Shown here piece by piece: positions 21,135 to 31,703 of a stretch of DNA of 64,000 nucleotides. The notes under the pieces were generated by a model that was not told where the DNA came from, made no database searches, and saw nothing but the letters and a program-made list of their open reading frames with translations. The DNA lies in NCBI GenBank assembly GCA_030426355.1, contig JAUHYQ010000006.1, forward strand, positions 124,001 to 188,000, read 5' to 3'. The position numbers and the translations under genes were made by a program. Numbering within the stretch: the stretch's first letter is position 1; each line of letters begins with the position of its first letter. This DNA comes from Gammaproteobacteria bacterium (GTDB lineage: Bacteria; Pseudomonadota; Gammaproteobacteria; Steroidobacterales; GCA-2729495).

Positions 21135-21746
21135 TCACGCGCGCGCGGCGAACTGTGTAGCTACCGTAAGGGGAATGAGACTGAGGTGGGCGACCGAAAG
21201 CTGTTTGCCGTGACCCTGCAAGACACCGTTCACCAGATCCGGCCAGCAAGCCGGATGATCGGCATGCCGGGCATGCAGGCTGGCGCATGTCACCCGCGCA
21301 CATTCGCAGAGTTCCACAAAATCCATATTAGCCAGCGCATCGGCGGCCGCCGGATCCAGCCCCATACAAAAACCGGTAATGCCGTCAGGCTGGCGGCTGT
21401 AATGCCAGAGCGAGGTCAGCAAGCGGTTGGCGTAGTTCAGTGCGCAATCAGACCATTCAGTAGAAACATGGCTTTCGGCCACCTTGCCCGCCGCCTGCAA
21501 CGGGTAGCGTTGCGCACCCGGCAGCAGCGCAAAGCCGGCGAGTAACAGGGGCGCGGTGGCGAGTTGATCCAACTGAGCAACGCTCATGCGTCGCAGACTG
21601 TCGATGACATCGGGGCTCAGGCCCAGTAAACGAGAGCGACCGTCCACTGCCGGGTGAGTCAGCAGGCTCAGAAACTCGCGGTTCATCGCGCTTATTTCAG
21701 CCTGCAAATCCGGGCTTGCAGGGCTTTCAGGACGTACAGGCGACAT
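21135..21746 (-). CDS. FlhD-like protein with two tandem FlhD-type repeats
   Basis: A 203-residue protein. Residues 18-72 (EISAMNREFLSLL, LLGLSPDVIDSLRRMSVAQLDQLA) align by eye with the core of the flagellar master regulator FlhD ([26 protein letters not shown]). Residues 126-160 (FCMGLDPAAADALANMDFVELCECA) look like a second, diverged copy. This suggests a single-chain equivalent of the FlhD dimer. It is divergent from an FlhC-like gene 151 bp away and just upstream of the YadGH-like exporter. No flagellar genes are in the window, so a non-flagellar target is possible. Typical FlhD is about 116 residues. Confidence 0.65.
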   Translation of the reverse strand: MSPVRPESPASPDLQAEISAMNREFLSLLTHPAVDGRSRLLGLSPDVIDSLRRMSVAQLDQLATAPLLLAGFALLPGAQRYPLQAAGKVAESHVSTEWSDCALNYANRLLTSLWHYSRQPDGITGFCMGLDPAAADALANMDFVELCECARVTCASLHARHADHPACWPDLVNGVLQGHGKQLSVAHLSLIPLTVATQFAARA

Positions 21747-21897: not shown

Positions 21898-22455
21898 ATG
21901 CGCGTCACCGACAACCGCTACGCCACCGAAATGGCAAAATTCAATCTGGCCGTCCGCATGATCGGCCACGAAGCGCGCACCGGCACCATCCGCCGTTGCA
22001 CCGGATTCTCGGAAGACCGTATCCGCAAAATCTACGGTACCTATTTCAAGAATCGCCGCGGCAACACTGTCAAACGACGCCGCGGCAAGACGCCACGACA
22101 AATCACCTGCTTTGTTGCCTCCAGCCGGCAACAATCAGAAGCCACCCTGCTCGGATGTTTCATGGTGAATGCCGGCGTCGTGTTACCCGGGCTGTCCGAC
22201 GGGTACCCGCACAAAACCCGGCTGGACAATCTGCAATTGGGCGAACGTTTTTGCGATGCCTTCGAAGCCTATCAGGCACTGCATCCCGAACCGCAGCTTT
22301 GCTTCGAAAATGCCTGGAACCTCTATCGTGCCCTGGCGGTCGAGCAGGAGCTCTATTTCGCTTCCTGCGCTTTGTGTCAGGGCATTTACGTGCAAGACCG
22401 CTATGCTCTGGACTACCGGCGCTGTCCGTTTTGTGAACTGAAAGCATCCGGCTGA
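21898..22455 (+). CDS. FlhC-like transcriptional regulator
   Basis: A 185-residue protein. The N-terminal RYATEMAKFNLAVRMIGHEART and the CTGFSEDRIRKIYGTYF helix-turn-helix-like stretch (34-50) match the layout of FlhC. The C-terminus has paired CxxC motifs, Cys157/Cys160 and Cys176/Cys179, separated by 15 residues, close to the 16-residue spacing of the FlhC zinc site. The middle helix ENAWNLYRALAVEQELYFASC mirrors FlhC's RAWTLVRFVESGLLQLSSC. An AGGAGG ribosome site precedes the ATG. A different-frame open frame over the same DNA is a shadow. Likely works with the divergent FlhD-like protein. Confidence 0.72.
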   Translation: MRVTDNRYATEMAKFNLAVRMIGHEARTGTIRRCTGFSEDRIRKIYGTYFKNRRGNTVKRRRGKTPRQITCFVASSRQQSEATLLGCFMVNAGVVLPGLSDGYPHKTRLDNLQLGERFCDAFEAYQALHPEPQLCFENAWNLYRALAVEQELYFASCALCQGIYVQDRYALDYRRCPFCELKASG

Positions 22456-23423: not shown

Positions 23424-23488
23424 CAATAGTCACTTGACCTAGCATTTTATGTGCGTATCATGCGCACCCTGTTACTTTTATGCGCATA
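23407..23488 (+). promoter_or_regulatory. argR promoter with three candidate ArgR boxes
   Basis: The palindrome TATGCGCATA occurs exactly at 23407-23416 and 23479-23488, with a diverged copy TATGTGCGTA at 23448-23457 followed by CATGCGCA. A good sigma-70 promoter, TTGACC (23434-23439), 16-bp spacer, TATCAT (23456-23461), overlaps the middle copy. Spacings of 41 and 31 bp are near whole helical turns. Repression of the argR-arg operon by ArgR is the obvious reading. The sequence differs from the E. coli ARG box, so binding is inferred. Confidence 0.6.
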
Positions 23489-23493
23489 TATTG

Positions 23494-23940
23494 ATGCCCA
23501 CCGCACCCGACATCAGGGCCCGGCGCCGTCAGGCCATTCTCGAAATTCTCGAGGAACGGCCCGTGGCGCGGCAATCTGATTTTGTCGCGCTGCTGCAAGC
23601 CAAAGGTGTCGATGCAACGCAATCGAGTATCAGCCGCGACTTACGCGAGCTGGGCATTGCCAAGCTGGGAGAAGGCTACGCACAGCTATCGGTGTCGACG
23701 CGACTGGATGACGCGGACGTACCGCAAGGTTTTGTTCGCGACATCGAAACCGCAGGTGCGAACCTGACGGTGATACAAACCGCGACCGGGGCCGCCGCCC
23801 GCGTAGCATTATCGCTGGACCGCAGTAACTGGCCGGAGATTGTTGGCACGATTTCCGGTGATGACACGATTTTTGTTGCCACCAAGAACGCGAACGACCA
23901 GAAGCAATTATTGAGCAAGCTGCGTTCGTTAATGAACTGA
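23494..23940 (+). CDS. argR: arginine repressor
   Basis: A 148-residue ArgR: an N-terminal winged helix (RRRQAILEILEERPVARQSDFVALLQAKGVDATQSSISRDLRELGIAKL), then a C-terminal oligomerisation/arginine-binding domain ending GDDTIFVATKNANDQKQLLSKL with the Gly-Asp-Asp arginine-binding motif. ATG 23494 is preferred. The upstream in-frame ATG at 23449 lies inside the promoter and would add 15 atypical residues. ArgR heads the arginine operon (argG begins 20 nt after its stop) and probably represses it and itself through the palindromes just upstream. Confidence 0.95.
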   Translation: MPTAPDIRARRRQAILEILEERPVARQSDFVALLQAKGVDATQSSISRDLRELGIAKLGEGYAQLSVSTRLDDADVPQGFVRDIETAGANLTVIQTATGAAARVALSLDRSNWPEIVGTISGDDTIFVATKNANDQKQLLSKLRSLMN

Positions 23941-23960: not shown

Positions 23961-25193
23961 ATGACTGACACATCACCGATTATCCTGGCTTACTCCGGCG
24001 GACTCGACACGTCGTTCTGCGTGCCGTGGTTAAAGGAAACCTACAACCGGCCTGTCGTAACGGTATGCATTAATACCGGCGGGCTGAACGATGCGGCGGC
24101 TGCCAGCCTGGAAGAACGGGCCAAGGCGCTCGGTGCACAGGAACACGTGCTGGTTGAAGCACGGCAGATTTTCTTCGATCGCGTGTTGAAGTATCTAATC
24201 GCTGCCAACGCCCGGCGTGGCAATCTGTATCCGCTGTGTGTCGGTGCCGAACGGGGCATTCAGGCAACCCTGCTGGCAGAGCTTGCCAGCGAACGGGGTT
24301 CCACTACCGTGGCGCATGGCTGTACCGCGGCAGGTAATGATCAGGTGCGTTTCGAAGTTGCCCTGCGCACTGTGAACCCGGCGCTGGAAGTGCTGGCTCC
24401 GGTGCGTGATCAAGCCTTTCAGCGGGATCAGCAAATCAAATACCTGCAGGACAACCACTACCCCATGCCACCCTCGGGTGGCGCGTACTCCATTAACCGG
24501 GGCATGTGGGGCGTGTCCATCGGCGGTGCCGAGACACTGACCTCGGGTAACACCATTCCGGAAAAGGCGTGGGTGTTGTCTGCCGGCGCCTTTGACAAAA
24601 ACCTGCCCGCCAAAGAACTGAGCGTCAGTTTCAAGCATGGCGTGCCGGTGGCGCTGGACGGCCAAGCCATGAACCCGGTCGAATTAATTGAAGCACTGGA
24701 AGGCATCGGTGGCGAATACGCCATCGGTCGCGGCATCCACGTCGGTGACACCGTGCTCGGCACCAAGGGCCGGGTCGCGTTTGAAGCGCCGGCGGCGGAA
24801 ATATTGCTGAATGCACACCGCGAGCTGGAGAAACTCACCCTGAGTGCGCTGCAGATGAAAATTAAAGAAAGCGTGGCGCAAAACTACAGTGATTTTGTGC
24901 ACGAAGGGAAGCAACTCGATCCGGTGTGTCGTGACATCGAGGCACTGCTGGATTCGTCGCAGGCAACCGTGACCGGCGACGTGAAACTGATTCTGCGGCC
25001 AGGCAACGTGTTTGTGGCCGGCGTGGATTCCGCCTTCTCGCTGATGGCCGCCACCAAGGGTGTTTACGGTGAATCCGCCGGTGAATGGACACCGCAGGAT
25101 GCGCTGGGTTATTCGCGCATCCTCGCGTTGCCGGGGATGCTGCAATCACGGGCACGGAAAAACGGCCAGAAACACGACCAGAGCAAATCATGA
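23961..25193 (+). CDS. argG: argininosuccinate synthase
   Basis: A 410-residue enzyme ligating citrulline and aspartate with ATP, the penultimate step of arginine synthesis. The N-terminal PP-loop is AYSGGLDTSFC, and VAHGCTAAGNDQVRFE and GGAYSINRGMWG are also visible. The segment VCINTGGLNDAAAASLEERAKALG, instead of the DVGQGEEL type of most proteobacterial ArgG, looks like the Bacteroidetes/Flavobacteria version. In an operon where the upstream carbamoylation uses N-acylornithine, citrulline must first be deacylated. The stop overlaps the next gene as ATGA. Confidence 0.95.
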   Translation: MTDTSPIILAYSGGLDTSFCVPWLKETYNRPVVTVCINTGGLNDAAAASLEERAKALGAQEHVLVEARQIFFDRVLKYLIAANARRGNLYPLCVGAERGIQATLLAELASERGSTTVAHGCTAAGNDQVRFEVALRTVNPALEVLAPVRDQAFQRDQQIKYLQDNHYPMPPSGGAYSINRGMWGVSIGGAETLTSGNTIPEKAWVLSAGAFDKNLPAKELSVSFKHGVPVALDGQAMNPVELIEALEGIGGEYAIGRGIHVGDTVLGTKGRVAFEAPAAEILLNAHRELEKLTLSALQMKIKESVAQNYSDFVHEGKQLDPVCRDIEALLDSSQATVTGDVKLILRPGNVFVAGVDSAFSLMAATKGVYGESAGEWTPQDALGYSRILALPGMLQSRARKNGQKHDQSKS

Positions 25194-26260
25194 TGAAAAC
25201 CGTCATAGCGGACAAAATCGCATCGGTCGCACAACACCGGGGGCTCAAACGCGAGCTGCGGGTCAGTGACGAAATTCCGTGCGAGGAAGGCGTGCTGGTA
25301 GCGGTGGAAATACTGAACAACAAATCCACCTACAACACCCTCGAACTCACCAGTGGCCGGATGGCACAGATCAAGCGCGGCGATGTCATCGTCGGCGCGC
25401 TCGGTCACCGCAAAGCGCTGTTCGGCTATTCCGGTCACCTGCCCGAAACACTCAAACCGGGTGACGAAATCCAGGTGCTGAACATTGGCGGCGTGCTTGG
25501 TATTTGCGATTCAATCAACGCCAACTTCGGTCAGCCGTTCAATGCCAGGGTGCTCGGCACGGTATTGGAGTTTCCGTATCTCGGTGAACGCATCGGCGTG
25601 CCGGCGCGTGCCGGCGGCGAAGAGCTCGGCAACGACACCACCGTGAACACCCACGGCGTGCCGGTTGTTGCCCTGGCCGGCACCTGCATGGATTCCGGAA
25701 AAACTGCAGCGGCCTGCGCCATTGTTGCGCGGCTGCGGCATCTGGGTCACACGGTTGACGCATTCAAGGCCACCGGGGTTTCACTGCGGCGGGATATTCT
25801 TGCCATGGAAGATGCCGGGGCGCGGAACACTTCGATATTTACCGACTTTGGCGTTATCACCACGACGTCGAAGAACGGTGCGCAAGTGACCCGCACGATT
25901 TTGAACAAGCTGGCGGCTACCAAACCGGATGCGATTGTGTTCGAACTGGGCGACGGCATCCTCGGCACTTACGGGGTGGACGCAATCCTTAATGATCAGG
26001 CAGTGGCCGAGTCCATCACCTGCCTTATTCTGTGCGCCAACGATCCGGTGGGCGCATGCGGCGGCGTGGCTTTATTGCAGAGTGAGTTCGGCATGCAGGC
26101 GCATCTGGTGACAGGGCCCGCAACCGACAATCAGGTGGGGCGCACCATTATTCAGGACCGGCTCGGGCTTAGCGGTATTAATGCCATTACCAACGCGACC
26201 GACCTCGGTGATGCCGTGGCCGCGATGATCGGCCTGCAGGAACAACATTATGAAAAGTAA
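25190..26260 (+). CDS. P-loop DUF1611-like protein embedded in the arginine operon
   Basis: A 356-residue protein of no certain function. Residues 1-155 are beta-rich (YNTLELTSGRMAQIKRGDVIVGALGHRKALFGYSGHLP, VLNIGGVLGICDS). Residues 158-350 form a P-loop domain with Walker A GTCMDSGKT (164-172), then KATGVSLRRDIL, FTDFGVITT and FELGDGILGTYG, an order resembling the C-terminal domain of DUF1611. One DUF1611 member, DgcN, has been described as an N-acyltransferase in D-glutamate metabolism (from memory). The gene overlaps argG (ATGA) and argC (11 nt), so it is fully embedded. The operon lacks argA and argE, so this protein is the candidate for glutamate acylation or for deacylation, which is inference. 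Start ATG 25190. Confidence 0.6.
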   Translation: MMKTVIADKIASVAQHRGLKRELRVSDEIPCEEGVLVAVEILNNKSTYNTLELTSGRMAQIKRGDVIVGALGHRKALFGYSGHLPETLKPGDEIQVLNIGGVLGICDSINANFGQPFNARVLGTVLEFPYLGERIGVPARAGGEELGNDTTVNTHGVPVVALAGTCMDSGKTAAACAIVARLRHLGHTVDAFKATGVSLRRDILAMEDAGARNTSIFTDFGVITTTSKNGAQVTRTILNKLAATKPDAIVFELGDGILGTYGVDAILNDQAVAESITCLILCANDPVGACGGVALLQSEFGMQAHLVTGPATDNQVGRTIIQDRLGLSGINAITNATDLGDAVAAMIGLQEQHYEK

Positions 26261-27332
26261 TGCCGTCCCCACCGTCATACTCGGCGGCACCGGCTATGTG
26301 GCCGGTGAACTCCTGCGGCTTGTTGCCGGGCATCCGCAGCTGCAGCTGTGTGCAGCGGTGTCCGAAAGTCAGGCGGGTGAAGCCATCAAGTCGGTGTTCC
26401 CGCATCTGCAAAACGCTTTTGCCACTCAGGCCTATATCGGTCGCGATGAACTGGATAAAACACTGGTCAAGCTGGCCGGGCAGCACGTTGCGCTGTTTTC
26501 GGCCGCACCCCACGGTGCCAGCGCGGCCATGATTGAAAGCGTATTGCAGTCTGCTGACAAGGCCGGCTGCACGCTGACCGTGGTGGATGCATCCGCGGAT
26601 TTTCGCTTTGACAACAACGCGGCTTACGAAGCCGTTTACGGCCACCCGCATGGCGCACAGGCGTTACTGGATCAGTTCACCAGCGCCTTGCCCGAACATC
26701 GGAGCATGGCAGCCGGCAGCGCTGACAAACCGCACGTGGGGCAGCCGGGCTGCTTTGCGACATCGATGCTGCTCGGTGCAGTGCCGTTGCTGCAGTCGGG
26801 CATCAGTGACGGGGTCATTCATGCTTTCGGCATTACCGGCAGTACCGGTTCAGGGCGCTCGCCGATTGCGACGACCCATCACCCGCTGAGGCATTCCAAT
26901 TTGTACGCTTACAAACCTTTGTCACACCGGCATGCGCCCGAAGTGGTGAGTATTTGCGAAATGCTCACCGGTAATGAACTCGACCTGCGTTTTATTCCGC
27001 ATTCGGGTCCGTTTGCCCGGGGCATACACATGACGTTACAAGCCGAATTGGTCAAAGACGTTGATGCGGCTTTCGTAACACGGTTGTTGCGGGAGTTTTA
27101 TGCGAACCAACCGTTCATCGACGTGCTGGATGGCATGCCCAGAATCAAGGATGTTGCCGGCAGCAATTTCGCCCATATCGGCGTAGCCGTGGAAGGCTCG
27201 GCACTGGCAATTTTTGTTGCCATCGACAACCTGTTGAAAGGTGCGGCTGGCAGTTGTGTGCAGTGGATGAACATCAAGCTCGGGCTCGACGAAACCACAG
27301 GGCTGCTGGCTCCTGGGCCCGGCTGGATTTAG
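26250..27332 (+). CDS. argC: N-acetyl-gamma-glutamyl-phosphate reductase
   Basis: A 360-residue NADPH-dependent reductase that converts N-acylglutamyl phosphate to the semialdehyde. The Rossmann motif is ILGGTGYVAGELLRL, the catalytic Cys is in GQPGCFATSMLLG, and GSTGSGRSP and FIPHSGPFARGIHMTL are family blocks. The length fits ArgC. It overlaps the end of the DUF1611-like gene and precedes argD by 21 nt. The family normally acts on N-acetyl intermediates. Whether acetyl or succinyl is used here depends on the transcarbamylase specificity. Confidence 0.95.
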   Translation: MKSNAVPTVILGGTGYVAGELLRLVAGHPQLQLCAAVSESQAGEAIKSVFPHLQNAFATQAYIGRDELDKTLVKLAGQHVALFSAAPHGASAAMIESVLQSADKAGCTLTVVDASADFRFDNNAAYEAVYGHPHGAQALLDQFTSALPEHRSMAAGSADKPHVGQPGCFATSMLLGAVPLLQSGISDGVIHAFGITGSTGSGRSPIATTHHPLRHSNLYAYKPLSHRHAPEVVSICEMLTGNELDLRFIPHSGPFARGIHMTLQAELVKDVDAAFVTRLLREFYANQPFIDVLDGMPRIKDVAGSNFAHIGVAVEGSALAIFVAIDNLLKGAAGSCVQWMNIKLGLDETTGLLAPGPGWI

Positions 27333-27353: not shown

Positions 27354-28523
27354 ATGAATGCTCAAATTGATAACGCAGGCTTTAATGCCCGGCACGCTGA
27401 ACAGGCTCACCTGCTGCAGGTATACAGCCAGTATGATTTTGAACCGGTGGCCGCGAGCGGCGTAACCCTGACTTGCCGGGACGGTCGCGAGTTGCTGGAT
27501 TTCTACGGCGGCCATGCAGTTGCCTCGCTGGGTTACGGGCACCCCGACGCGGTGCGGGCGATTTCAGCGCAGGCGGAAAAACTGTTTTTTCAAAGCAACG
27601 CGGTCGCACTGGAAGTCCGCGCGCAGGCAGCCGATAAACTGGCAGCCTTCTCCGGAATGGACCGCGTGTTTTTGTGTAACAGCGGCGCAGAAGCCAATGA
27701 AAACGCGCTGCGGATTGCACTGCGCAAAACGGGCCGGAACAAAATACTGGCGCTGGAACACAGTTTTCACGGGCGCACCGCGGCAGCCGGTGCGGTGACG
27801 TGGGGCGCAGCCGATCGATGGTACGGCTTCCCGCGCACCCCGTTTGATGTGGAATTCATTTCGCGGGATGACGTCGCGGCGGCAGTTGCCGCCATTGATG
27901 GCAGCGTTGCGGCCGTTATTCTGGAACCGGTGCAAGGCATTGCCGGTGCGTATGTGCTCGGCGCGGACTTCATTCAGGCCGTGGCGGGCGCGTGCAAACA
28001 ATCCGGTGCGTTGCTGATCAGTGATGAAGTGCAATGCGGGGTTGGGCGCTGCGGTACGCCGTTTGCGATTCATCTGCACAATGTGCGGCCCGACATCATG
28101 ACGACGGCCAAGGCACTGGGTACCGGTTTTCCGGTAGGCGCGGTCATGCTCAGCGAAGACGTGGCAGCAGTGCTTGGCAACGGTGATCTGGGCACCACCT
28201 TCGGCGGCGGGCCACTGGCGTGCGCGCTGATCAACACCGTGCTGGACGTTATTGAACGCGACCGGCTGATCGATAACGTAAAAGCGTTGTCGGCGCGCAT
28301 AAAAGAAGAATGTGTCGTCGGCCCCGTGCAGCAGATATCGGGTGAAGGGTTTCTGCTAGGGCTGCGGTGCGACGGCAGTGCGGCGCCGATGCGCAACAAG
28401 CTGTTATCCGCCGGGATTCTGACCGGCTCGAGTAATGATGCGAACGTCACGCGACTGCTGCCACCGCTTACCTTAGAGGACAAACACGTGGATGCGCTGG
28501 TTGCGGCATTGAAGTCAATTTGA
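27354..28523 (+). CDS. argD: N-acylornithine aminotransferase (PLP)
   Basis: A 389-residue class-III PLP aminotransferase making N-acylornithine from the semialdehyde and glutamate. Motifs: GHAVASLGYGHPD, FLCNSGAEANENALRIA, HSFHGRTAAAGAVTW, ISDEVQCGVGRCGTPFA and the PLP lysine in TTAKALGTGFPVGAVM. ArgD and its relatives often accept both acetyl and succinyl substrates, which fits either version of this operon. It begins 21 nt after argC and is followed by the transcarbamylase gene 13 nt later. Confidence 0.95.
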   Translation: MNAQIDNAGFNARHAEQAHLLQVYSQYDFEPVAASGVTLTCRDGRELLDFYGGHAVASLGYGHPDAVRAISAQAEKLFFQSNAVALEVRAQAADKLAAFSGMDRVFLCNSGAEANENALRIALRKTGRNKILALEHSFHGRTAAAGAVTWGAADRWYGFPRTPFDVEFISRDDVAAAVAAIDGSVAAVILEPVQGIAGAYVLGADFIQAVAGACKQSGALLISDEVQCGVGRCGTPFAIHLHNVRPDIMTTAKALGTGFPVGAVMLSEDVAAVLGNGDLGTTFGGGPLACALINTVLDVIERDRLIDNVKALSARIKEECVVGPVQQISGEGFLLGLRCDGSAAPMRNKLLSAGILTGSSNDANVTRLLPPLTLEDKHVDALVAALKSI

Positions 28524-28536
28524 TCAAGGATGCGAC

Positions 28537-29535
28537 ATGAAAGAATTTAACGATCTGGGCGACTTCCAGATAGAGGAAGTCAAAGCGCTGCTGGAGCTGG
28601 CCACACGGCTGGAACACAACCCCGAGCCTCGGGCACTCGCCGGCAAGGTACTGGCGTTGCTGTTTTTGAGTCCGTCATTACGCACCCTTGCTTCTTTTCA
28701 GGCCGCCATGGTGCGCCTCGGCGGCGGGTCGTTTGTGATTTCCCCGGACATGTCTATACACGGCCTGGAAACGCGGCCGGGTATTGTTATGGACGGTATG
28801 GCCGCAGAGCACATCCGTGAGGCAGTACCGGTGATCGCTTCGTACGGCGATGCCATCGGCATTCGGGCCTTTGCGCAGCGCGAGAATCTCGAAAGCGAAA
28901 TCGCGGACGAAGAATTTAACAAACTGAAAGAGCTGTGCGACATTCCGCGCATCAACATGGAATCGGCGATCAATCATCCCTGCCAAAGTCTTGCCGACTG
29001 GAAGACCATGGACGATTTCGGCGTTCCGGCCAATGGCGGCAAATTTGTATTGAGCTGGGCTTATCATCCTCGCGCGTTGCCACTGGCGGTTCCGTCTGCG
29101 ACCGTCCATATGGCTGCCATGCGCGGCATGGATGTCACGGTGTTGAGGCCCGAGGGTTTTGAGCTACCGGAACCCGTCATGCACAAAGCCCGGCAAGCGG
29201 CGGCAATGTCCGGGGGTTCGGTTACCGAAACCGACGACCGTGCGGCCGCGCTGGAAGGCGCCAACATCATCTATGCGAAATCATGGATGTCGACGCGTCA
29301 CTACGGCAATTTGCCTGCGGATGCCGAGGCGCGTCGCGGGCGTGAAGACTGGTGTGTCGACGAACCGTGGTTTGACACGGCTGCTGCCGATGCGCGCTTC
29401 ATGCACTGCCTGCCGGTGCGTCGCGGGGTCGTCGTAGCCGATCGCATCCTGGACGGGCCGCGCAGCATCGTCATTCCCGAAGCGCGTAACCGGATGTATG
29501 CACAAATGGCCGTGCTGCATCAGATGCTGAGATAG
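28537..29535 (+). CDS. argF': N-acylornithine transcarbamylase (AOTCase/SOTCase, ArgF')
   Basis: A 332-residue transcarbamylase of the N-acylornithine group rather than ornithine transcarbamylase. Carbamoyl-phosphate residues are in LSPSLRTLASF and HPCQSLADW, and HCLPVRRGVV, AKSWMSTRHYG and YHPRALPLAVP follow. The loop that sets specificity reads DGMAAEHI, with Ala90 where Xanthomonas N-acetylornithine transcarbamylase has Glu92 and Bacteroides N-succinylornithine transcarbamylase has Pro90. Published swaps at this site show Ala allows succinylornithine, so the native substrate may be N-succinylornithine. This is inference from one residue. Confidence 0.9.
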   Translation: MKEFNDLGDFQIEEVKALLELATRLEHNPEPRALAGKVLALLFLSPSLRTLASFQAAMVRLGGGSFVISPDMSIHGLETRPGIVMDGMAAEHIREAVPVIASYGDAIGIRAFAQRENLESEIADEEFNKLKELCDIPRINMESAINHPCQSLADWKTMDDFGVPANGGKFVLSWAYHPRALPLAVPSATVHMAAMRGMDVTVLRPEGFELPEPVMHKARQAAAMSGGSVTETDDRAAALEGANIIYAKSWMSTRHYGNLPADAEARRGREDWCVDEPWFDTAAADARFMHCLPVRRGVVVADRILDGPRSIVIPEARNRMYAQMAVLHQMLR

Positions 29536-29545
29536 GTTTTTGCGA

Positions 29546-30478
29546 ATGAATAACAACGAGAAAGACAGGAGTCTGGTGGTCGCAGCGCTGCGGCATGCGG
29601 CGCCATATGTCCGCATGTACAAGCGCAAGATCTTCGTCGTAAAGGCAGGCGGAGAACTGTTTCTGAACGACACGAAAACGCGCGCGCTGCTGGAACAGAT
29701 GGCCATACTGCATCAGGTGGGCATACGTCTGGTGCTGGTGCACGGTGCCGGGCCGCAAGCGACACAGCGGGCCCGGGATCTGGGCCTGCAGGCGCAGATG
29801 GTGCAGGGCCGGCGCGTTACCGATGCGGAGACACTGAAAGTCTGCGAGCAGGTCAACGCGGAAATCAGGGCGCAGATTAAGGCCAACTGCGACGCACTGG
29901 GAATGCCCACGCACGGACTGGTGGGCGCTGACGGGCCGGTGCGGGCGCACAAACGGGCACCGGTGCAAATGGGCGACGCCGGCCTGGTTGATTTCGGTTT
30001 TGTGGGTGACATCGACAGCATTGATGCCAATGCGGTGCAAGCTTATCTGGATGCGGGAACCGTGCCGGTAATAAGCCCGCTCGGCTGTGATGCAGAAGGC
30101 GCGCTGCTGAACATCAACGCCGATACCATAGCCGCGTCGCTGGCAGCACAACTGCACGCAGAAAAGCTGATACTGGCCACCGGCGCGCTGGGTATATTTG
30201 AAGACATCAATGACAAAAGTTCGCTGGTGTCATACACCGATATTGAAGGGCTGCAACAACTGCGTGAAAACGGTTCGCTGGCTGACGGCATGCTGCCAAA
30301 AGCCAGGGCAATTGAAATGGCGGTGGAAGGCGGCGTGCCCCGGGTGCACGTGATTTCCTATGCGGTGCCGGACGGATTGCTACTGGAAATTTTTACCAAT
30401 GAAGGCACCGGCACACTGGTGGTAAAAAGCATTGCGGCGCTGACGGCGGCGGAACAGTCGGCGGGCGCCGGCCACTGA
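29546..30478 (+). CDS. argB: N-acetylglutamate kinase-like amino-acid kinase
   Basis: A 310-residue amino-acid kinase. VVKAGGELF, VLVHGAGPQA, QGRRVTDAETL, GALLNINADTIAASLA and GALGIFEDI are the NAGK/NAGS-fold blocks, and the C-terminus (LADGMLPKARAIEMAVEGGVPRVHVIS) is NAGK-like. It lacks the C-terminal GNAT acetyltransferase domain that makes the Xanthomonas protein a bifunctional synthase-kinase, so it cannot supply acetylglutamate itself. The ATG at 29546 is preferred to TTG 29540. It is embedded between argF' and argH. Confidence 0.9.
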   Translation: MNNNEKDRSLVVAALRHAAPYVRMYKRKIFVVKAGGELFLNDTKTRALLEQMAILHQVGIRLVLVHGAGPQATQRARDLGLQAQMVQGRRVTDAETLKVCEQVNAEIRAQIKANCDALGMPTHGLVGADGPVRAHKRAPVQMGDAGLVDFGFVGDIDSIDANAVQAYLDAGTVPVISPLGCDAEGALLNINADTIAASLAAQLHAEKLILATGALGIFEDINDKSSLVSYTDIEGLQQLRENGSLADGMLPKARAIEMAVEGGVPRVHVISYAVPDGLLLEIFTNEGTGTLVVKSIAALTAAEQSAGAGH

Positions 30479-30503
30479 GTTGAATGCGGACACGGAGCAT
30501 GAC

Positions 30504-31703
30504 ATGAAGCGTCTCTGGGACAAGGGTGAACCGCTGGATCAGCGGGTATTGCGCTACACGGCAGGCGAGGATCATATCCTCGACGCCCGGCTGGTGCCCT
30601 ACGATGTGCGCGCTTCCATCGCGCACGCGACGATGCTGTGCGCGCAAAATTTGCTGAGCAAGGATGACCTCAAGGCGATAGAGATCGGTCTCAATGCACT
30701 GGCCGAGAGCCATGCCGCAGGCGACTGGTCGATCAGCCTGGACGATGAAGATTGTCACACCGCGCTGGAGCGGCATCTGACCGACGCCATCGGCGAAGCG
30801 GGCAAAAGGGTGCATCTCGGCAGGTCACGCAACGATCAGGTACTGACAGCGCTACGTTTATACATGCTGGACGCCGCGACCGAGCTTGAAGCCGCTGCCG
30901 ACAAAGTGGCGGAGGCGTTAACCGCACTGGGCGAGCGGCAAGCCGACGTTGCCCTGCCCGGCTATACCCACATGCAACATGGCATGCCCAGCTCGGTGCG
31001 CCTGTGGGCTGCGGGTTTTGCGGCAGAACTGAATGACGATGCCACAGGGCTGGCGGGTGCCAAACGGCGCATCAGCAAGAACCCGCTGGGCAGCGCAGCA
31101 GGTTACGGCACACCGGGCCTGAATATCGACCGCGAACATACGCGGGCGGCGCTCGGGTTCGACATTGTTCATGAACCCGTCACGGCGGTGCAGCTATCGC
31201 GGGGTAAAGCCGAGGCAGGGTTAATTTTTGAGCTGGTTATGCTGATGCAGGATCTGGGCAAACTGTCTGCCGATCTGATGCTCTTTTATACGCAGGAATT
31301 TGCGTACGTTACCCTGCCCGAGAACATGACCACCGGTTCGTCCATCATGCCGCAGAAGCGCAATCCGGATGTGCTGGAACTGGTGCGTGGCGCCACTGCG
31401 ACGGTCAATGCAGCCTTGCATGAAGTGCTCGGCATCTGCACCAAGCTAGGTTCGGGCTACCAGCGTGACCTGCAACGGATTAAACCGGCGCTATTTCGGG
31501 CCATCGACACCTCGCTGGCCTCAGCAGAAATTATGGCGGTGCTGATTGGCGGCCTGCGGTTTGTGCCGGAGAATATTAAACTCGACGCATCTATACATGC
31601 CGCTGAACAGGCAAACAAACTCGTAACCGTCGAAGGCATCAGCTTTCGCGAGGCGTACCTGCGGGTGGCTGCGGAATTGAATAAAGAATCAAACAACAAA
31701 TGA
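30504..31703 (+). CDS. argH: argininosuccinate lyase
   Basis: A 399-residue fumarase/aspartase-superfamily enzyme releasing arginine and fumarate. Signature GSSIMPQKRNPDVLEL, plus GRSRNDQV and the catalytic His in PGYTHMQHGMPS. It is shorter than the 450-460 residue E. coli enzyme at the C-terminus, which ends soon after SFREAYLRVAAEL, as in the Xanthomonas type. A GGAG ribosome site six bases before ATG 30504 makes this start better than TTG 30480. The stop overlaps lptM (ATGA). Confidence 0.94.
   Translation: MKRLWDKGEPLDQRVLRYTAGEDHILDARLVPYDVRASIAHATMLCAQNLLSKDDLKAIEIGLNALAESHAAGDWSISLDDEDCHTALERHLTDAIGEAGKRVHLGRSRNDQVLTALRLYMLDAATELEAAADKVAEALTALGERQADVALPGYTHMQHGMPSSVRLWAAGFAAELNDDATGLAGAKRRISKNPLGSAAGYGTPGLNIDREHTRAALGFDIVHEPVTAVQLSRGKAEAGLIFELVMLMQDLGKLSADLMLFYTQEFAYVTLPENMTTGSSIMPQKRNPDVLELVRGATATVNAALHEVLGICTKLGSGYQRDLQRIKPALFRAIDTSLASAEIMAVLIGGLRFVPENIKLDASIHAAEQANKLVTVEGISFREAYLRVAAELNKESNNK

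Follow-up and report, generated by a model that had tools for sequence, protein, structure and literature searches.

An orphan gene in the arginine operon

The window (the whole 64,000-nucleotide stretch of DNA that was analyzed) carries an arginine operon in the order argR-argG-X-argC-argD-argF'-argB-argH on the plus strand, as assigned with Pfam and NCBIfam. X denotes the gene, and its product, found between argG and argC. The features are as follows.

23449..23940, + strand: argR, arginine repressor (Pfam Arg_repressor; the best NCBIfam match is argR, under its cut-off; syntenic in relatives)
23961..25193, + strand: argG, argininosuccinate synthase (Pfam, NCBIfam)
25190..26260, + strand: X, orphan protein of 356 aa, between argG and argC
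26250..27332, + strand: argC, N-acyl-gamma-glutamyl-phosphate reductase (Pfam, NCBIfam)
27354..28523, + strand: argD, acylornithine aminotransferase (Pfam, NCBIfam)
28537..29535, + strand: argF', knotted-type carbamoyltransferase, predicted to be an N-succinylornithine carbamoyltransferase (NCBIfam, specificity residues)
29540..30478, + strand: argB, N-acylglutamate kinase, kinase domain only (Pfam, NCBIfam)
30480..31703, + strand: argH, argininosuccinate lyase (Pfam, NCBIfam)

The conserved block opens with argR. The ATG start codon of X is at 25190 and the TGA stop codon of argG is at 25191-25193, forming an ATGA overlap. The stop codon of X (26258-26260) lies beyond the start of argC (26250), an overlap of 11 nt. 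The ArgB protein, of 312 aa, has no GNAT domain by Pfam or NCBIfam and its matches to two ArgA models are confined to their kinase region (positions 2-292 at most). An initial annotation of this DNA had described the same reading frames, gene order and products, a coupling of X on both sides, and an argB without the GNAT domain; our check of the open reading frames and the Pfam and NCBIfam searches bore out all of these. Upstream of the operon, a minus-strand gene at 21135-21746 and a plus-strand gene at 21898-22455 are divergent. In this pair, FlhD is matched weakly (E 0.0087) and FlhC at the cut-off (27 bits), and an ABC-2 transporter pair adjoins it.

Fold, distribution and relatives of X

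X has a β-rich N-terminal domain (residues ~1 to 150) and a P-loop domain (~155 to 350) with the Walker A sequence GTCMDSGKT, including K171 and T172. The G, M, G, K and T of this motif are invariant in 19 and in 63 aligned X proteins. Other residues of note in the P-loop domain are K193, D202, D219 and E252, and the motifs SLRRD and TDNxVG are specific to X, as are R200 and R201. The AF2 model had a pLDDT of 89.8 and a pTM of 0.89. In VIA-align, the best match to the model was the DUF1611 structure 2g0t (Z 17.0, 183 residues, rmsd 3.0), next to CTP synthetases (up to Z 16.8), a second DUF1611 structure, 2obn (16.5), and the dethiobiotin synthetase 3of5 (16.4). DgcN (PDB 7xrj) came lower in the list (Z 15.5, 187 residues, rmsd 3.0, 14% identity). 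These matches cover mainly residues 153 to 353 of X, and Z differences under 1 are to be read as ties. Because the CTP and dethiobiotin synthetases match as well as DgcN does, the modeled fold does not differentiate CoA transfer from ATP chemistry.

The initial annotation called X DUF1611-like, which holds for the fold and at most distantly for the sequence. The P-loop fold of the solved DUF1611 members is present in the model, but it is unspecific, as CTP and dethiobiotin synthetases score alike. At the sequence level, the window X matched no Pfam family at an E of ≤1, and a search of its own genome with PF07755 (DUF1611) was negative at an E of ≤0.001. PF07755 matched five of 19 X members weakly (best E, 0.0023), and X did not reach its gathering score. 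The relation to DUF1611 is therefore a distant one. X also had no match to GNAT or to ArgJ (PF01960). At the limit of E ≤1, a MobB P-loop match was seen in 16 of the 19 members (best, 7.5e-6), and weak matches to EF-G domain 2 in six of them (best, 0.0039) are a hint only. Searching the sequences of solved structures with X gave one meaningless match, and with an X profile none; the profile of group A, a sister group described below, gave two meaningless matches, and two single group members gave none of use. Neither profile picked up the DgcN entry 7xrj. Modeled alone, the N-terminal domain was poorly predicted (pLDDT 68.8), and Foldseek with this model returned nothing under an E of 0.6.

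X matched in 160 of the 196 genomes of the order before paralogues were removed. Seven of the 160 (G003, G007, G030, G053, G063, G125 and G166) were dropped, their sole match being a group A paralogue. X is thus present in 153 of the 196 genomes and absent in 43, with partial matches scored as X by E-value alone. Identity to the window X is 59 to 85% among the full-length matches listed, and bins titled Woeseiaceae, Steroidobacteraceae and Steroidobacter are among the relatives. We class X as a conserved family of orphan proteins. With an ArgA-model E under 1e-35 as the criterion, 149 of the 153 genomes with X have an operon-type ArgB, versus four of the 43 others (G100, G127, G189 and G192). 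In G127, G189 and G192, the argB match starts ≤3.4 kb from the contig start, so that X, at the spacing seen in the window, would lie off the contig. Outside the order, X is rare: a search of 398 genomes across the phylum found it in the window's own assembly (G000) and in G463, together with three distant relatives and one marginal match. No relative of the window X turned up in a scan of viral contigs. Among the titles listed in literature searches on DgcN/DUF1611, missing argA, acetylcitrulline deacetylase, Steroidobacter and arginine, and the succinyl-type pathway, we recognized none treating X.

Two sister groups, A and B, uncharacterized like X, align with it across both domains (nine X, nine group A and 10 group B proteins). 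Thirty-four positions are common to all three, including G164, M167, G170, K171, T172, K193, G196, D202, G210, F217, D219, T225 and E252. Group A adjoins an M20-like gene in seven of the eight loci read (L202, L215, L216 and L218 to L221) and is also beside a flavin-reductase-like gene in five of the eight; these neighbor families were verified in L219 and L202 only.

Missing steps and the predicted acyl group

We searched the window's own assembly (2.82 Mb, 11 contigs, 99.69% complete) for the known first-step and deacylation genes. A profile search found no ArgJ match. The ArgA model had two matches, neither over its cut-off; the best was argB, which covers the kinase region of the model (positions 2-281 of 429). 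In a separate scan, the RimI protein matched the GNAT part of the model weakly (29 bits). The ArgE model had one match (E 1.7e-26), under its cut-off, which is consistent with the DapE found in this genome. The M20 model had four matches, and the only canonical M20 gene is dapE, which adjoins dapD and scores 530 bits against an NCBIfam cut-off of 361.8. Two of the other matches are NAGGN-system M42 peptidases (NCBIfam). The fourth lies inside a protein of 1127 aa that NCBIfam did not match at an E of ≤1e-30 and that we read, from its sequence, as an M1/M28-type peptidase. The one GNAT model used, PF00583, had 14 matches, of which one belongs to N-acetylglutaminylglutamine synthetase, two lie in a 751-aa protein and one lies in a short open reading frame. 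The other ten were scanned, and one of them, RimI, passed a cut-off. Therefore, the absence of argA, argE and argJ noted earlier for the operon extends, as far as the models reach, to the whole assembly. Elsewhere in the assembly (G000:C7, L049:5029-10733), we observed an NAGGN osmoprotectant cluster in which a gene that we read as asnB-like accompanies the N-acetylglutaminylglutamine synthetase and a tandem pair of M42 peptidases.

Across the order, the ArgA model was over its cut-off in none of the 196 genomes. ArgJ was found in none of the 80 genomes searched for it (79 of the 196 plus G463); the same search was positive in 10 of 14 control genomes. ArgE-family genes over the cut-off were present in 28 of the 196 genomes: 19 of the 153 with X, two of which belong to the window's genus, and nine of the 43 without X. 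Both the ArgA and the ArgE cut-off are stringent (one and two of the 14 control genomes pass, respectively), so genomes other than the window's own may have divergent forms of ArgA or ArgE, or other synthases. The ArgE model had one match each in G000 and in the one-contig genomes G015 (1.8e-29) and G062 (3.0e-24). We considered whether ArgE located elsewhere explains the gap, and rejected this: the ArgE neighborhoods in eight X genomes contained no argF', argB, argC or argG, and an argD-like gene was near ArgE in one of the eight. In L205, L206, L209 and L210, from the window's family, the ArgE-family gene is read as lying downstream of cytochrome c maturation-like genes.

The carbamoyltransferase gives information on the acyl group. 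As Shi and colleagues describe in passages of their review (PMC4581275), acetyl-type carbamoyltransferases have E92, N185 and K302 (numbered as in the Xanthomonas campestris AOTCase), and succinyl-type enzymes have A/S/P/V/Q, P, and V/I/E at these sites. GapMind, as outlined in part of PMC7311316, separates the two types by the first site. Aligned to the X. campestris AOTCase and its mutants, the window argF' has A90, P182 and V299 at the specificity sites. These residues belong to the published succinyl-type set, and the acetyl-type E92, N185 and K302 are all replaced. We rejected an acetyl-type assignment in which a nearby Glu is aligned with the diagnostic Glu, as the AOTCase alignment gives Ala at the specificity site. 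We aligned 89 argF' sequences, 82 of them distinct. All 82 distinct, X-linked sequences have A and P at the first two sites; the third is V in 51, A in 31 and K in none, and the 31 with A fall outside the published set at this site. At the position of R178, which anchors succinyl in the Bacteroides fragilis enzyme, 36 of the 82 have R, 31 have K and 15 have another residue, a variation that weakens the succinyl case a little. The window argF' also passes PRK04523, the NCBIfam model for N-acetylornithine carbamoyltransferase (331 bits versus 288), a model that may not separate the substrates. We therefore predict that argF' encodes an N-succinylornithine carbamoyltransferase and, because this enzyme in the X operon has succinyl-type residues, that the pathway probably runs on succinyl, like that of Bacteroidetes. 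The initial annotation had left acetyl and succinyl undecided; the A, P and V residues look succinyl-type.

Linkage of X and its proposed role

Eighteen of 20 fetched loci have the whole operon order. In the other two, L067 is without argD and L069 is split, with X-argC-argB divergent from argR-argG-argF'-argH. The set of 80 named loci comprises 56 with the complete operon, six (L112 to L117) with a reduced one, one (L136) without argD only, and 17 that run into an end of the fetched DNA. L112 to L117 have argR-X-argC-argD-argB, and argG, argF' and argH are absent from the fetched DNA, which covers 0.8 to 6.8 kb on the right side and 1.6 to 9.6 kb on the left. Their layout is near-identical, so they probably represent one event. 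X stands before argC in all 20 fetched loci and in 79 of the 80 named loci, the 80th ending after X; with six records common to both sets, the X-argC order is seen in 93 of 94 distinct loci.

G463, which belongs to another class, has an argR-X-argC-argB unit and a separate argG-argF-argH, and its ArgF is over the cut-offs for ordinary ornithine carbamoyltransferase. G463 also carries dapD-dapE, and the searches found no ArgJ there and no ArgE over the cut-off. A Steroidobacter X shares 75% identity with the one in G463. The G463 arg locus has a G+C content of 0.48 versus 0.54, and its tetranucleotide use correlates with the other contig of G463 (r, 0.94 to 0.95) and less with five loci of the order (0.24 to 0.73). 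Because tetranucleotide use fits G463's own contig, we take the unit to be a transfer, and the composition speaks against a contaminated bin.

In the broken operons (eight loci, about three events), X is kept with argC-argB, and with argD too in six, and is separated from argG, argF' and argH. L067 and L136 are uninformative, since argD, not X, is gone from the cluster. The initial annotation had suggested comparing relatives for co-occurrence of X with argF'; the two share the whole order in 18 of 20 loci and are parted in the broken operons. Acylcitrulline should not arise in G463, because its ornithine carbamoyltransferase is of the ordinary kind. X thus keeps with steps 2 to 4 and needs no acylcitrulline route, which argues for a role in step 1 or an ArgJ-like double role. 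Taken together, the broken-operon linkage and G463 point to N-acylation of glutamate rather than deacylation of acylcitrulline alone.

X is a real, widespread and uncharacterized arginine-synthesis gene. We suggest, with somewhat more confidence than doubt, that it encodes the first-step enzyme, which would acylate the nitrogen of L-glutamate, probably with succinyl, and so stand in for ArgA, for ArgJ or for a synthase of the GNAT kind. The initial annotation had proposed a non-GNAT glutamate acylase, and this is the best-supported reading given the linkage with steps 2 to 4 and a fold shared with DgcN among others, from which we infer the function. In this scenario, X would put the acyl group, probably succinyl, on the amino nitrogen of L-glutamate to give N-succinylglutamate, which ArgB, ArgC, ArgD and ArgF' would convert to N-succinylcitrulline. 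If X works as DgcN does, the likeliest donor would be succinyl-CoA, bound at the P-loop domain. This domain would bind the phosphates of CoA (or ATP), and the N-terminal domain with the SLRRD and TDNxVG motifs may hold the two acidic substrates. DapE removes succinyl in lysine synthesis. Because it is a desuccinylase there and the only canonical M20 gene found in the genome, DapE may take the succinyl off N-succinylcitrulline; this is a conjecture, and one for which the presence of dapE is no test.

DgcN resembles X in its P-loop fold, in its substrate class, glutamate, which is the one proposed for X, and in length (331 residues). It differs in that no sequence-level match to X was found and in that X sits in an arginine operon. 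The initial annotation cited DgcN as a glutamate N-acyltransferase. The title of PDB 7xrj does call it an N-acetyltransferase, but the DgcN-DgcA route is described in passages of PMC12363236 and PMC10845958 as one of D-glutamate utilization, not L-glutamate.

Could X serve both missing steps? As an ArgJ-like transacylase of new fold, it would transfer to glutamate the acyl group carried by N-acylcitrulline or, in G463, by N-acylornithine. X would then fill the place of ArgJ beside argC and argB, although no ArgJ match was found in X or in the 80 genomes searched, and the ArgJ fold class is presumably unrelated to that of X. The synthase and the deacylase are missing together, G000, G015 and G062 have a single ArgE-model match each (in G000 it is consistent with DapE), and in G463 X adjoins argC and argB with no ArgJ found. 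However, an ArgE-family protein over the cut-off is retained in 19 of the 153 genomes with X, DgcN is titled an N-acetyltransferase and not a transacylase, and the need for a P-loop in transacylation is not obvious. We regard a transacylase as unlikely, though worth keeping in view. In its specific form, the idea is that X is a single P-loop enzyme that succinylates glutamate and reclaims succinyl from N-succinylcitrulline (or N-succinylornithine), and hence an ArgJ of unrelated fold running a succinyl-type arginine cycle outside Bacteroidetes; this seems to us unlikely.

The P-loop itself raises a further alternative. X might be an ATP-dependent ligase, turning succinate (or acetate) into an acyl phosphate for coupling to glutamate, much as CTP synthetase and dethiobiotin synthetase activate their own substrates. 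The invariant Walker A residues, the fold matches to these two synthetases at Z 15 to 17 and the MobB P-loop matches favor such chemistry, but DgcN, an N-acetyltransferase by its PDB title, matches at a similar Z, and we consider a ligase distinctly unlikely. It is highly unlikely that X acts only as a deacylase or as a deacylase partner, with glutamate acylated by an unrecognized enzyme. The M20-like neighbors of group A could mean that the superfamily touches amide chemistry; in those loci, though, the M20 proteins would rather be the hydrolases themselves. The broken operons keep X with the steps before deacylation, and the modeled structure has a P-loop domain rather than the fold of a hydrolase. 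A deacylase was also an alternative in the initial annotation, and it loses ground because G463 pairs X-argC-argB with an ordinary ornithine carbamoyltransferase.

X as a glutamate acylase would, if confirmed, be a new enzyme family in a pathway of a kind already known. The acetyl-type pathway of Xanthomonas uses AOTCase, an NAGS-kinase and ArgE. The window shares with it a knotted-type carbamoyltransferase in a gammaproteobacterial arg operon, but the window argF' differs at all three specificity sites, argB has no GNAT domain, and argE was not found. With the succinyl-type pathway of Bacteroidetes it shares a predicted succinyl-type carbamoyltransferase, here within the X operon; in contrast, the synthase there is of the Cabys_1732 type, which we take to be GNAT, and here the parts would fall to X and perhaps to DapE itself. 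According to passages of PMC7311316, the Bacteroidetes set comprises the carbamoyltransferase BT3717, the probable synthase BT3761, a homologue of Cabys_1732, and the candidate desuccinylase BT3549, a distant relative of a DapE.

The first arginine enzyme is used to judge from genomes whether an organism makes arginine, and the lineage studied here, with its Woeseiaceae and Steroidobacteraceae bins, would score as missing two steps. If our proposal is true, X closes a gap in a core pathway, brings a further fold to the acylglutamate-forming enzymes and extends the succinyl-type pathway to Gammaproteobacteria; an orphan family gains a function, and its two sister groups gain a lead. Group B, annotated as DUF1611 or dethiobiotin synthase, adjoins an ABC transporter on three Rhodobacterales plasmids (L240 to L242), two of which also have alpha/beta hydrolase and S8 peptidase genes nearby. 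This context is perhaps one of peptide modification and export.
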